Source of the DNA: an uncultured Caulobacteraceae bacterium
GTDB lineage: Bacteria; Pseudomonadota; Alphaproteobacteria; Caulobacterales; Caulobacteraceae
NCBI GenBank assembly: GCA_937890965.1
Contig: CALAEG010000362.1
Coordinates: 1-37,204, forward strand
DNA length: 37,204 nt
Direction of reading: 5' to 3'
Shown piece after piece: positions 10,613 to 34,140 of the stretch. The notes beneath the pieces were generated by a model, which saw only the letters and a list, made by a program, of their open reading frames with translations, made no database searches and was not told the origin of the DNA. How positions within the stretch are numbered: position 1 is the stretch's first letter; the number at the start of each line of letters is the position of its first letter. A program made the translations under genes and the position numbers.

Positions 10613-10648
10613 ACGTCGGTGGACTGGCGGCGGCTGGAGGGCAAGCCA

Positions 10649-11137
10649 ATGGGTTGGACCGACGAACGCGTAGAATTGTTGAAGAAACTCTGGCTGGAAG
10701 GTCTTTCGGCCAGCCAGATCGCCAAACAGCTTGGCGGGGTGACCCGCAATGCCGTCATTGGCAAGGTGCACCGGCTGGGCCTCTCCGGCCGCGCCGCGCC
10801 TTCGCAGCCGAGCCGGCCGACCTTCAAGGCGCCGCGTCCGCCGCGTCCGATGGCGCAACCCGCGCCGCGCCGGCTCGAACAGCGGGCGGCCCCGATGCCC
10901 GCTCCGGTCTATTTCGTCGAGGAGCCGGGCTCGGCCACGGTGCTGACGCTCGGCGCGCACATGTGCAAATGGCCGATCGGCGACCCGTCGACCGACAGCT
11001 TCACCTTCTGCGGGCGCCGCGCCGAGACCGAGGGGCCCTACTGCGTCAACCACGCGCGCATCGCCTATCAGCCGCAGCAGCCGCGCAAGCGCTCCGGCGC
11101 CACCGAACTGGCCCGCTCGCTCCGGCGCTACATCTAG
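10649..11137 (+). CDS. gcrA: Cell cycle regulator GcrA
   Basis: A 162-residue GcrA protein. In Caulobacter it binds the sigma-70 RNA polymerase and methylated GANTC promoters and drives genes of S phase and division. The N-terminal helix-turn-helix, MGWTDERVELLKKLWLEGLS followed by ASQIAKQLGG and TRNAVIGKVHRLGLSGR, spans residues 1-48 and is nearly diagnostic. A proline/arginine-rich linker (50-80) follows. The C-terminal domain that contacts sigma-70 holds HMCKWPIGDP, FTFCGRR and GPYCVNHARIAY, with three conserved cysteines. The ATG has GGAGG eight bases upstream. The upstream region holds GANTC, DnaA-like and CtrA-like sites, matching the known control circuit. A two-hairpin repeat ends the gene. 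Confidence 0.96.
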   Translation: MGWTDERVELLKKLWLEGLSASQIAKQLGGVTRNAVIGKVHRLGLSGRAAPSQPSRPTFKAPRPPRPMAQPAPRRLEQRAAPMPAPVYFVEEPGSATVLTLGAHMCKWPIGDPSTDSFTFCGRRAETEGPYCVNHARIAYQPQQPRKRSGATELARSLRRYI

Positions 11138-11139
11138 GC

Positions 11140-11252
11140 AGAGCGGGTGGAGTGAAAGTGCGAAGCGGTTTTCCGCCCGCAACCCGCTCTAACTCCTAGG
11201 AATCGATCACGTTCATGATTTTGGATTGGTTCAATCCGAAATCATCGTGATC
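11140..11252. repeat. Two-hairpin repeat, copy 1 (likely bidirectional terminator)
   Basis: Hairpin A pairs AGAGCGGGT (11140-11148) with ACCCGCTCT (11182-11190) and encloses GAAAGTG and a small GCGG-TTTT-CCGC hairpin. Hairpin B pairs GATCACG (11205-11211) with CGTGATC (11246-11252), has a 5' bulge TTC, and continues as ATGATTTTGGATTG (11215-11228) against 11232-11245. It separates converging gcrA and the glycosyltransferase gene, whose stop codon lies inside hairpin B. A structurally matching copy lies at 33154-33270. Copies of similar elements are, to my recollection, common in alphaproteobacterial intergenic regions. Confidence 0.7.
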
Positions 11253-13266
11253 TCGGCGCGTAGATCGTCCGGTCTTCGCCCACCGTCCGCGATCCGTCGC
11301 GGCCGGTGACGCGGATGGCTAGGCGGTGCGCGCCGGGGGTCAGGGCGGCTTTCGGCAGCTCGAAGGTGAAGCGCAGCTTCGGATAGTCCGGATCGTAGGC
11401 CAGGGTCGGCGAGGTCGCGGGCGCGCCGGGCCATGTCTGATGCAGGCGGCCTTGCGAGACCGCGCGGCCGTCCAGCAGGATATCGACGCGGGCGACGCCG
11501 CCCGGGCTGGCGGCCAGGCCGGAGAGGTTCTTCAGGGTGTCGGGGTTCAGGATGTCGGTTCGCTTGGGACGGCTGACATAGATCCGCGGCAGGAAGGGGC
11601 AGGGCCTGGCGATGGCCGGCGCCGCGCCGCCCACCCGGGCGGTGAAGGTCTGCATCACCAGGCGGCCGGGTGAGGCCTCCACCGTCTCCACCGGGGCGAT
11701 GTCGCTGAAGCTGTTGCAGAGTTCGGTGCGGAACTGGGTCTCCGCGGGCGTGTCGTAGAGATAGGTGGGCTCTGGCAGGAGGATGACCACGGCGGCGCCG
11801 GCGTGCTCGGCCAACAGGGCGCGGCGGTCGAGATGGATGGCGGCGCGGAAGATGTCGAAATGAGCGGTCATTTCGCGCGGATCGCCGAGCGCGAAGACCT
11901 GACGGCCGGGCTGGCCCGGAAATTCCAGCTTCACCGCCTCCACATGGCCCGCCGTGGCCAACAGCGGCTCGGCGCCGAAGCGCTGGCGCGCCAGGACCTG
12001 GGCGCGGGCGATAGCCGGCTCGAACTGGGCGAAGGGTTCGTAGTCGGTGGTGATCCGATCGCGAATGGAAAGCGCGACCCGGTCGGGATGCGCCCAGCCG
12101 ACCGCGGTCCAGAGGCTGGCCAGGACGAAGAGGACGCCGACCATGACCGGGCCGGTCCCGACCAGGGCCATCCGCAGGCGGCGATGAACCTCCGATCGCG
12201 CGCTGTCGACATAGGCCGCGAGCGCGCCGGGCAGGAAGGCGATCAGCGGCACATAGGCCTCGATCGGCCATTGCGGCGCGAGCTTCTGGTCTAAGGGGCT
12301 GAGCAGTGCATAGGCGCCGAAAAGAACGCCACCCACCCAGAGCAGCAGGGTGGAGGCCTCATCCCCCACCTGGGCCCGCCGGAAGGCGCGGACCGAGCCC
12401 GCCGCCATGCCCAGGAAAAAAACCGGTGTGCAGAGGGCGGCCTGGGCGGCGACATAGGCCAGCGGGCCAATCAGGTTGAGCTGCCAAGCCTGCTGGCTGA
12501 GCAGGTGATAGCTGATCGCCGGCGCGTGGGTGGCGAGGCTGTACAGCACCGAGGGCGCCAAGCCGGCCGCGGCCAGGGCGCCGGCCAGCCAGAAACCGGG
12601 TTCGCGCCACAGCCGGCGGCCGGGCCGGCTGGCCAGCACGAAGCCCAGTATGCCCAACCCCACCCCGGCGAAACGATAGTGCACAAAGAGACCGAGACCG
12701 GCCGCCACACCGGTCAGGACCCACCAGCCCAGCTGGCCGCCGCTCATGCCGCGGATGAGCCCGCCCAGCATCAGCGCCAGCAGCAGTTGCATGGCCGCCT
12801 CGGAATAGAAGATCGCACCACCGGCCCCGAGCGCCGGAACCAGCATCGACAACAGGCCGGCCCAGATGGCGCCCCGCCGCCCGACGACGGGGGCGGCCAT
12901 GAAATAGATGCCGAAGGGCACGGCCTGGGCGACGAGAAGGCTTGGGACCCGCACCGCCAGCGGCGACCAGCCGAACAGGGCCACGCAGGCGCGCGCGAAC
13001 AGCGGCCAACCGGCGGGAATGTCGGGATAGGCCAGCGCCGGGTGCATGCCAGCGACGACGAAATGCGCCTCTTCCCAGACGACGCCGATATGGGCGGCCA
13101 GGGCGAGCTTCCACAGGCTCATGCCCAGCCAGAGGGCGGCTGCGGCGGTCGCCAGGCCCTGGTCGCTGCCGAACAGCACATCCGGGCGTGCTGCGACGCC
13201 CGCGCGCTCGCGTGTTACGGCCCGCGGCATGAGCCATGCCGCGTCGGCCTCGCGTCCGACTGTCAA
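11242..13266 (-). CDS. Membrane glycosyltransferase, GT39/ArnT-like
   Basis: A 674-residue polytopic membrane protein of the PMT/ArnT type (dolichol- or polyprenyl-phosphate sugar transferases). The first periplasmic loop holds WEEAHFVVAGMHPALAYPD, the place where such enzymes carry an acidic catalytic motif, then GWPLFARACVALFGWSPLAVRVPSL. About 10-12 membrane segments fill residues 35-385. After the last one, residues from about 400 form a large soluble domain, ending in an Ig-like beta region (LRFTFELPKAALTPGAHRLAIRV). The frame starts at a TTG (13266) with GGGGGA six bases upstream; an ATG at 13230 is the alternative. Two GANTC sites (13270-13274 and 13281-13285) lie right upstream. It may modify lipid A or a surface polysaccharide; the substrate is unknown. 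Confidence 0.7.
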   Translation of the reverse strand: MTVGREADAAWLMPRAVTRERAGVAARPDVLFGSDQGLATAAAALWLGMSLWKLALAAHIGVVWEEAHFVVAGMHPALAYPDIPAGWPLFARACVALFGWSPLAVRVPSLLVAQAVPFGIYFMAAPVVGRRGAIWAGLLSMLVPALGAGGAIFYSEAAMQLLLALMLGGLIRGMSGGQLGWWVLTGVAAGLGLFVHYRFAGVGLGILGFVLASRPGRRLWREPGFWLAGALAAAGLAPSVLYSLATHAPAISYHLLSQQAWQLNLIGPLAYVAAQAALCTPVFFLGMAAGSVRAFRRAQVGDEASTLLLWVGGVLFGAYALLSPLDQKLAPQWPIEAYVPLIAFLPGALAAYVDSARSEVHRRLRMALVGTGPVMVGVLFVLASLWTAVGWAHPDRVALSIRDRITTDYEPFAQFEPAIARAQVLARQRFGAEPLLATAGHVEAVKLEFPGQPGRQVFALGDPREMTAHFDIFRAAIHLDRRALLAEHAGAAVVILLPEPTYLYDTPAETQFRTELCNSFSDIAPVETVEASPGRLVMQTFTARVGGAAPAIARPCPFLPRIYVSRPKRTDILNPDTLKNLSGLAASPGGVARVDILLDGRAVSQGRLHQTWPGAPATSPTLAYDPDYPKLRFTFELPKAALTPGAHRLAIRVTGRDGSRTVGEDRTIYAPRSR

Positions 13267-31698: not shown

Positions 31699-33156
31699 AT
31701 GGGCCCTGGGAGACGCCGTTTGACTTCAGATGCGCCGAAGGCCGCCGCGCGGCGGCTGGGCCTGCCGACCATCCTGACCTTCTCGGCCGTCACCCTGCCG
31801 ATGAGTTCGCTGGGCATCGCCCTGGCCATCTTCCTGCCGCGCTATTTCGCCAGCCATCTGGGCGTCAGCCTGACCGCGGTGGGCTTCGCCTTCTTCGCTG
31901 TGCGGCTCATCGACGTGCCGGTCGATCCGGTGCTCGGGCTGATGATGGACCGCACCCGGACCTTCCTTGGCCGCTATCGGCTGTGGCTGCTCATCGGCGC
32001 GCCGATCCTGATGCTGGCGGTCTATCAGCTGTTCATGGCGCCGATGGGCATATCGCGGGGCTATCTGATCGTCTGGCTACTGTGCATGTATCTCGGCACG
32101 TCGATCATCGGGCTATCCCACACAGCCTGGGCCTCGACCTTGGCCGCCGCCTATCACGAGCGCTCGCGCCTGTTCGGGGTTATCACCATGGTCAGCGTCG
32201 TCGCATCGGTGGCGGTGCTGGGCATCCCGACGCTCGCCAAGCACTATCATCTGGGCGACCCGGACGGGGTCCAGACCATGGGCTGGCTCACGATCTGCCT
32301 GATCCCCATCGGCATAGGCCTGGTGGCGTGGCGCATCCCCGAGCACGTCGCCGTCGATGTCCACACCACCCAGCAGTTCGCCTTCAGCGACTATTTGGGG
32401 CTGATCAGAAAGCCGGCCATGATCCGCCTGATCCTGGCCCAGGTCTGCCTGACGCTCAGTCCAGGCTGGATGAGCGCGCTCTACCTCTTCTTCTTCAAGG
32501 ACGTGCTCGGCTTCACCATCGCCACGGCCTCGGCCCTGCTCGGCGTCTACGTCCTGGCCGGGGTGGCCGGGGCGCCGATCACCACCTGGGTCTCGTCCAA
32601 GATCGGCAAGCACCGCACGCTGATGTTGACCACCTCGGCCTATTCGATCGGCCTGTGCGCGGTCATCGTCATACCCAAGGACGGCAACCTGCTCGCCGCC
32701 ATTCCGGTGATGCTCTGGTGCGGCGGCATGGCCTCGGGCTTCAACCTTTTGATCCAGTCCATGACCGCCGACGTGGGCGACGAGGTGAGGCTCGAGCAGG
32801 GTAAGCAGCGAATGAGCCTGATCTATTCGCTAACCAGCCTGGCGGCGAAGATCGCCGGAGCGTTTGCGATAATCCTGACCTACTGGGTTTTGGCCAAGGT
32901 CGGCTACAACGCAAAGGACGGCGCGCACAATACTGCCCATGCCGTCCTGGGCCTGGAACTTGCCTATGTGATCGGGCCGATCTTCTTCGCCATGCTGGGC
33001 GGCGCCTGTTTCATCGGCTGGAAGCTGGACGCGGTGCGCCACGGCGAGATACGCGAGCAGCTCGACGCCAGAGACGCCCAGTTCAACGAGGCGCCGATCA
33101 TCGAGAGCCTGACTGGCCAGCCGGCCATCCCGGTGCTCGCCACGGAAACGGACTAG
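31699..33156 (+). CDS. GPH/MelB-type sugar transporter (MFS)
   Basis: A 485-residue symporter of the glycoside-pentoside-hexuronide (MelB-like) group. It has 12 predicted membrane segments. The loop DPVLGLMMDRTRTFLGRYRLWLLIGAPILM is the diagnostic GPH signature, with the Asp pair near helix 2 and the RxGRxRxWLL pattern. Later, SSKIGKHRTLML and VGDEVRLEQGKQRMSLIYSL are also typical. It likely imports an oligosaccharide or glycoside with Na+ or H+. The ATG at 31699 is provisional: a TTG at 31720 has GGGAG seven bases upstream. Downstream are a deacetylase and an alpha-mannosidase, suggesting a mannose-containing glycan. Its stop codon lies inside a two-hairpin repeat. Confidence 0.87.
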   Translation: MGPGRRRLTSDAPKAAARRLGLPTILTFSAVTLPMSSLGIALAIFLPRYFASHLGVSLTAVGFAFFAVRLIDVPVDPVLGLMMDRTRTFLGRYRLWLLIGAPILMLAVYQLFMAPMGISRGYLIVWLLCMYLGTSIIGLSHTAWASTLAAAYHERSRLFGVITMVSVVASVAVLGIPTLAKHYHLGDPDGVQTMGWLTICLIPIGIGLVAWRIPEHVAVDVHTTQQFAFSDYLGLIRKPAMIRLILAQVCLTLSPGWMSALYLFFFKDVLGFTIATASALLGVYVLAGVAGAPITTWVSSKIGKHRTLMLTTSAYSIGLCAVIVIPKDGNLLAAIPVMLWCGGMASGFNLLIQSMTADVGDEVRLEQGKQRMSLIYSLTSLAAKIAGAFAIILTYWVLAKVGYNAKDGAHNTAHAVLGLELAYVIGPIFFAMLGGACFIGWKLDAVRHGEIREQLDARDAQFNEAPIIESLTGQPAIPVLATETD

Positions 33157-33270
33157 AGCATGTTAGGCGAAAGTGTGGGCGGTTTCGCCGCTCGAACATG
33201 CTCTAAACTTATGATTCTAGACCCTTTTTATCTGGTTCAGATGGGTCCATCTGAGCCAGAAAGGGTCTAG
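33154..33270. repeat. Two-hairpin repeat, copy 2
   Basis: Hairpin A pairs TAGAGCATGTT (33154-33164) with AACATGCTCTA (33195-33205) and encloses GAAAGTGTG and GCGGTTTCGCC, matching copy 1. Hairpin B pairs CTAGACCCTTT (33217-33227) with AAAGGGTCTAG (33260-33270). It has a 5' bulge TTAT and a second stem 33232-33244 against 33247-33259. The stems differ in sequence from copy 1 but keep the same architecture and bulge side. It lies between the sugar transporter and deacetylase genes and would attenuate or end the transcript. Confidence 0.75.
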
Positions 33271-33291: not shown

Positions 33292-34140
33292 ATGACCGCC
33301 AGTCTCGCCGAACGCCTGGGCTATGGCGCCGATGAGCGCCTGTTGATCGTCAATTGCGACGACCTGGGCTCCAGCCACGCCGCCAACACGGCGATCGAGG
33401 AGTCCATCCGCCGCGGCTTCGCCACCAGCGCCACCCTGATGGTTCCCTGTCCCTGGGCGTTCGAGGCGGCGCGGGGCCTCGCCGATCTCGACATCGGCGT
33501 GCACCTGACGCTGACGGCCGAATATCCCGGCTACCGCTGGCGCTCGCTCACCGGCGCCGCCTCGCTACACGACGCCGACGGCTTCATGCCGGCGACCGCC
33601 GAGGCGGTGTTCGCCAACGCCGATCTTGCCGAGGTCCGCGCCGAATGCCGCGCCCAGATCGACCAGGCCCTGGCCTGGGGCGTCGACGTCACCCACCTGG
33701 ATTCGCACATGGGTACGGTGCAGACCGAGGCCCGGTTCTACGACGTCTACGCCGAGCTGGCCGCCGAGTACCGCCTGCCGCTGCGCATGGCCGGCGCCAG
33801 CGCGGAAAGGGTCCTGGGCTTCGAGTTCCGCCGCCCGGCCGCCGAGCGTGGGCTGGTCTTTCCCGACCACTTCCTGTCGCCGCGGTGGGGGTTTCCGACC
33901 CGGCAGGTGCTGATGGACAGCCTGCGGCGCCTGCGGCCAGGCGTGACCGAGGTCTTGCTTCATCCGGTCGTCGATGGGCCGGAGCTGCGCGCCTATGACA
34001 AGGCCGCTCCTGAGATCCGCGCCGGCGACTACGCCAACCTGCTGGACGATGAGTTACGGGCTCTCCTAGAAGACGCCGGCGTGCGCCTGATCAGCTTCCG
34101 GCCGCTCCGCGATCTGCAAAGAGGCCTTGTCCATGCATGA
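33292..34140 (+). CDS. ChbG/YdjC family carbohydrate deacetylase
   Basis: A 282-residue YdjC-fold protein. The ChbG/YdjC family removes an acetyl group from chitooligosaccharides or other N-acetylated sugars with a metal ion. The metal and catalytic residues are visible: LLIVNCDDLGSSHAAN (Asp23, Asp24), GVHLTLTAEYP (His71), VTHLDSHMGTVQ (His135, Asp137, His139), and TEVLLHPVVDGPEL (conserved His). ATG 33292 follows the two-hairpin repeat by about 20 bases and has no strong ribosome-binding site. It overlaps the alpha-mannosidase by eight bases, so the two are coupled. The substrate here may be a mannose/GlcNAc glycan. Confidence 0.88.
   Translation: MTASLAERLGYGADERLLIVNCDDLGSSHAANTAIEESIRRGFATSATLMVPCPWAFEAARGLADLDIGVHLTLTAEYPGYRWRSLTGAASLHDADGFMPATAEAVFANADLAEVRAECRAQIDQALAWGVDVTHLDSHMGTVQTEARFYDVYAELAAEYRLPLRMAGASAERVLGFEFRRPAAERGLVFPDHFLSPRWGFPTRQVLMDSLRRLRPGVTEVLLHPVVDGPELRAYDKAAPEIRAGDYANLLDDELRALLEDAGVRLISFRPLRDLQRGLVHA

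Follow-up and report, generated by a model that had tools for sequence, protein, structure and literature searches.

Two double hairpins in a Caulobacteraceae contig as probable copies of a RIME/CIR/Bru-RS-type mobile repeat inserting at CTAG

The window analysed here, a stretch of 37,204 nt of contig CALAEG010000362.1 from an uncultured Caulobacteraceae bacterium, carries two elements that each consist of two hairpins. These are very probably copies from two subfamilies of a non-autonomous mobile repeat of about 110 bp, of the kind known as RIME, CIR and Bru-RS, which inserts at CTAG and for that reason lies at gene 3' ends.

Results and Discussion

Structure of the two elements

An earlier note had described a double hairpin at two places in the window, with several features in common. 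Both double hairpins are present (Table 1), and their RNA folds lie far below those of shuffled sequences, at -57.7 kcal/mol for copy 1 (z -5.1) and -64.3 kcal/mol for copy 2 (z -7.5), with none of 200 shuffles as good in either case. The single hairpins of both copies, folded separately, gave z values from -4.1 to -7.1. The AGAGC/GCTCT edge, GAAAGTG, GCGGTTT...CGCC and a 5'-side bulge of 3-4 nt in hairpin B were likewise found in both copies. Two details needed slight correction: copy 1 reads GCGGTTTTCCGCC and copy 2 GCGGTTTCGCC, and the elements reach beyond the edges first given, to the limits in Table 1. Intact copies are bordered by CTAG at both ends. The junctions of copy 1 are altered, reading CTAG-GC-AGAGC on the left and GATCTCG, with TCG where TAG is expected, on the right. 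At 11242-11255, the end of the convergent glycosyltransferase gene falls within hairpin B of copy 1, so that the gene owes its last codons and its stop to the element.

Table 1. Coordinates of the two elements, their parts and the adjoining genes in the window.
Feature	Position	Strand	Description or basis
gcrA, GcrA cell-cycle regulator, upstream of copy 1	10619..11137	+	PF07750, 4.6e-57
CTAG holding the gcrA stop (TAG 11135-11137)	11134..11137	+	sequence
Element copy 1	11140..11255	+	subfamily F1, RIME-like; covariance-model score 125.8 bits
Copy 1 hairpin A	11140..11190	+	AGAGCGGG...CCCGCTCT; folding
Copy 1 linker GANTC (CcrM-type) site	11200..11204	+	reads GAATC; sequence
Copy 1 hairpin B	11205..11252	+	GATCACG...CGTGATC, 5'-side TTC bulge; folding
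PMT_2 glycosyltransferase gene, convergent, downstream of copy 1	11242..13230	-	stop within hairpin B
MFS sugar transporter gene, upstream of copy 2	31720..33156	+	PF13347
Element copy 2	33153..33270	+	subfamily F2; CTAG borders 33153-33156 and 33267-33270
Copy 2 left CTAG	33153..33156	+	TAG within is the MFS transporter stop codon
Copy 2 hairpin A	33154..33205	+	TAGAGCATGTT...AACATGCTCTA; folding
Copy 2 linker GANTC site	33213..33217	+	reads GATTC; sequence
Copy 2 hairpin B	33217..33270	+	CTAGACCC...GGGTCTAG; folding
YdjC-like gene, downstream of copy 2	33292..34140	+	PF04794

Copy number and distribution

Copies 1 and 2 represent two multicopy subfamilies, F1 and F2, and not an isolated pair. 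A DNA search of the genome with copy 1 returned dozens of copies, about 88-95% identical, and the same search with copy 2 returned ten full copies, of which the nine besides the query were 87-96% identical. Counting with a covariance model of 33 copies and with profile searches gave about 57 F1 and about 11 F2 copies (about 68 in total), some of them partial or at contig ends of the fragmented assembly. The earlier opinion that this was more than a simple copied repeat is thus not borne out, as the element is a copied mobile repeat. Of four other genomes of the genus, three had related subfamilies and the fourth had no copy. The relatives' subfamilies have different stem sequences, such as CTAGAGCACGTT and CTAGAGCGCGTTCC, on a constant plan of CTAG, hairpin A with a GAAAGTG or AAAAGTG core, linker, hairpin B and CTAG.

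The copy sets are species-specific, few neighbours are common to different species, and within the order the occurrence is patchy (19 of 150 genomes under strict filters). F1 matched 266 plasmid records, nearly all from Sinorhizobium and Rhizobium; 152 records, again nearly all rhizobial, matched at least 80% of its length, and the best plasmid matches were 83-89% identical over the full length. The megaplasmids of S. meliloti have 20-30 F1-matching places each. A search of Rfam at gathering and relaxed thresholds gave nothing relevant.

Some copies have unusual arrangements. One (L173, in relative G003) is a mosaic in which hairpin A and hairpin B come from different subfamilies by exchange of arms. 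Head-to-tail triple arrays with 113 bp spacing and shared terminal bases were seen at G032:C29:19356-19696 and G032:C30:4700-5040, as expected if the element targets its own CTAG end. The repeat is also borne by a Limisphaerales MAG contig (L270, PLJQ01000309); as the repeat is alphaproteobacterial, this contig is probably misbinned.

Covariation of the stems

Pairing was said to be kept while the stem sequences of the two copies differ, which was taken as a sign of selection on structure. Both statements agree with the wider set of copies, in which stem covariation across subfamilies is strong. All tested subfamilies have the two-hairpin fold, and in every subfamily the stem positions are less variable than the unpaired ones. 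For hairpin A of 19 diverse copies, 95.7% of cells are paired and 10 of 16 pairs are changed on both sides, giving 45 double-changed cells, where shuffles have 16.4 and slid controls 3-5. Within F1 alone, both sides are changed at five pairs (shuffle expectation, 0.8), and one F1 copy (L016) has lost one base from each side of a pair.

Given their stability and the covariation of their stems, the hairpins could be structures of RNA 3' ends that selection maintains at the ends of genes, whether for terminating transcription or for stabilising mRNA. Copies of the relatives carry T4-T5 3' of hairpin A, which would suit a terminator; however, the T-tract is interrupted in F1 and F2 of the window genome, and a terminator scan found no terminator-like site at copy 1 or copy 2, neither of which has the GC-rich hairpin followed by a U-tract of an intrinsic terminator. 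In addition, single-sided pair changes gave G-U in 58 cases and A-C in 61, without strand asymmetry. Selection acting on RNA from a single strand would be expected to spare G-U, so that pairing in the DNA itself, or on both strands, is an equally good or better explanation.

Insertion at CTAG

Empty and occupied states could be compared at three sites on Sinorhizobium megaplasmids. The empty site holds one CTAG, the occupied site holds the element between two CTAGs, and the net insert is 112-114 bp. The empty site GGCC-CTAG-GAGATACG (L341, L343) thus compares with CTAG-element-CTAG (L334), and AGT-CTAG-ACG (L342) with its occupied counterpart L335; a polymorphism within S. meliloti sets an empty site with an extra T (L344) against an occupied one (L338). 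The pairs correspond to duplication of TA within CTAG or of CTAG itself, which are indistinguishable. Empty sites and target duplication, the marks of a MITE, are therefore found at all three sites, with CTAG as the target. Copy 1 counts against a clean duplication, since its element is set off from the stop CTAG by GC and has TCG in place of TAG on the right.

The repeat could alternatively be of the REP/REPIN type, with its hairpins mobilised as single strands by a Y1 transposase (RAYT/IS200-IS605). The ends of REP and IS605 are hairpins with a foot tetranucleotide and 5'-side bulges, and our elements resemble them in both features. However, duplication of CTAG or TA is unexpected for Y1 elements, and the Y1 domain PF01797 is absent from the window genome and two element-rich relatives, the only one being in G004; the copy-rich genomes therefore lack the RAYT transposase of REP/REPIN systems, and such an origin is extremely unlikely.

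In the favoured reading, the mover would be a TA-duplicating DDE transposase supplied in trans. Among the IS5/IS630-type loci of the genus that were examined, none had terminal repeats matching the element. DUF4096-type IS5 enzymes were rejected, being absent from the window genome and having other terminal repeats in G003; IS630-type DDE_3 and DDE_Tnp_1 loci were rejected for terminal repeats unlike GAGC. IS5-type insertion sequences lie in the left-end YTAG of the element itself at L340 (565-1500) and L349 (about 957-1809). The one in L340 starts with TA-GAGC, as does the repeat, with no other terminal match, and this likeness is suggestive only. Another insertion sequence of the window genome (G000:C403; L354, 53-1490) has perfect, unrelated 14 bp ends, GCACTACTTTGGCA, and sits in a C-TA-G site; its flanks, C-TA and TA-G, mark it as a putative further CTAG-targeting element.

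Placement at gene 3' ends

Placement was scored against gene calls from a simple script with a codon-usage gene caller. By these calls, 4 of 126 copies lay within predicted genes, so that the repeat is essentially intergenic, as is CIR. In 48 of the 126 the stop codon of a neighbour was exactly the terminal TAG of the element. Of the 86 stops that touch an element, 66 were TAG, compared with 107 of 339 stops at other places (odds ratio 7.2, p 4e-14). The 3'-end clustering that the earlier note had predicted is thus real, but it does not exceed what the availability of CTAG predicts. Outside the elements CTAG is rare, with 202 sites in about 449 kb: 45 at stops, 83 at other non-coding positions and 74 in coding sequence, which makes up 90% of the bases. 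Among non-coding positions, a stop was shared by 48 of 122 elements (39%) and by 45 of 128 CTAG sites (35%; p 0.5). Since the stop share of the elements matches that of non-coding CTAGs, the bias is explained by target choice, and CTAG preference together with loss of intragenic insertions suffices for it. In a 1.2 Mb sample of G001, the stop at the orthologous gene end was not always TAG, although clear cases were few.

These data also bear on a role in RNA. Many copies lie a few bases from stops, and 38 of the 106 classified copies are in convergent gaps, a class that makes up 52 of the 262 background gaps, as would be expected of terminators. On the other side, orientation relative to tandem genes has no significant bias (28 same, 17 opposite; p = 0.14), the 3'-end bias equals CTAG availability, and occurrence is patchy across species. 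The termination role suggested for the two 3' ends finds no counterpart in a U-tract, a significant orientation bias or a strand asymmetry; RNA structure is an improbable basis for the repeat, and weak or condition-specific effects of the copies on RNA are conceivable.

GANTC sites and gcrA

GcrA is a regulator that binds CcrM-methylated GANTC, and its gene adjoins copy 1, whose linker bears GAATC. The repeats might accordingly be portable GANTC sites linked to CcrM and GcrA, set in a hairpin loop or linker and selected for cell-cycle control, an idea that the literature raises for CIR. Of 116 copies, 97 have GANTC in hairpin B or the linker (background, about 1.75 per kb). Among the 42 full F1 copies, 33 retain the linker site. 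The terminal loop has GANTC, as GATTC in F2 and F3, in 7 of 10 F2 copies of the window genome and 17 of 22 F2 copies of G003. However, the loop site is gone from most F1 copies of the window genome, 7 of 42 retaining it by a strict pattern, and CTAG insertion accounts for the placement. Moreover, the gcrA end bears no copy in the four genus relatives, and in three of them the orthologue has the terminal CTAG without the element. Because the element is missing there, the position of copy 1 next to gcrA may be a coincidence. Selection as methylation sites is highly unlikely.

At the apex of hairpin B in F1 of the window genome (model position 90, around 11229 in the window), one loop base is near random, with A, C, G and T all common, or is missing, although the bases around it are conserved. 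This position, where F1 varies most, is that of the adenine in the loop GATTC of other copies. The element might be a methylation-gated transposon, with the GANTC of its linker or loop read by CcrM and GcrA, hairpin extrusion and movement confined to a hemimethylated interval of the cell cycle, and F1 freed to multiply by loss of the loop site; we consider this very unlikely.

Relation to known repeats

RIME reportedly stands for Rhizobium-specific intergenic mosaic element, as described by Osteras et al. in 1995. Judged by architecture and distribution, there is good reason to place our elements in the alphaproteobacterial class of RIME, CIR and Bru-RS, intergenic repeats of about 110 bp with two palindromes. 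RIME is named in PMC2573895 and in the reference list of PMC1273637, which cites RIME and CIR together as long alphaproteobacterial repeats. With RIME the elements share a length of about 110 bp, two large palindromes, intergenic position and dozens of copies in Sinorhizobium and Rhizobium, the F1 matches being of this kind in rhizobial replicons, where elements on the megaplasmids are 83-86% identical to F1 across 98-100% of its length; any identification with RIME1 is based on host, copy number and architecture. Unlike RIME in its strict sense, the elements also occur in Caulobacteraceae and hence are not Rhizobium-specific.

CIR is described in PMC2229807 as an intergenic repeat of about 110 bp with two arms and a linker, TA termini and GANTC. 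Our elements are of the same length and likewise intergenic, with a linker connecting two independent long stem-loops, TA termini and GANTC, and come from the same bacterial family; they differ in that GANTC is mostly in the terminal loop in F2 and F3 and mostly in the linker in F1. In that source the target duplication of CIR is given as unknown; use of CTAG is seen in the rhizobial relatives of our elements. Bru-RS1 and Bru-RS2 of Brucella, likened here by description, are palindromic intergenic repeats of about 103 bp. PMC3163539 describes a Bru-RS1 element interrupted at a YTAR site by the Brucella insertion sequence IS711, which duplicates TA there; this parallels the IS5-type insertions at the YTAG of our element (L340, L349). 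RUP and the NEMIS/Correia MITEs are also small and non-autonomous, with TA termini and signals for neighbouring genes. However, they form one end-to-end inverted repeat and not two separate hairpins, and the terminal inverted repeat of our element is only about GAGC.

Proposed mechanism and significance

In the proposed mechanism, an element enters a pre-existing CTAG and ends up bounded by CTAG, with TA or CTAG duplicated. Copies would then build up at gene 3' ends, since stop codons account for many of the non-coding CTAGs and most intragenic insertions are purged, and the terminal TAG of the element would act as the stop codon of a neighbour in more than a third of cases. Selection would maintain the pairing, most likely either because it is in folded form that the DNA acts as substrate, or binds protein, during spread, or because the palindromes template their own repair. 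The insertion chemistry of the Sinorhizobium type presumably also acts in this Caulobacteraceae genome.

In the literature, both the function and the mobility of RIME, CIR and Bru-RS are given as unknown. The present element is an ordinary member of this class, and what is added is a mechanism, CTAG insertion, and a null model for 3'-end placement. The empty sites show that the RIME-like relatives insert at CTAG, and the null model is simple: the repeats bring portable TAG stops, and a terminator is unneeded. For functional claims on RIME, CIR and Bru-RS repeats, this means that an enrichment must exceed that of CTAG sites.
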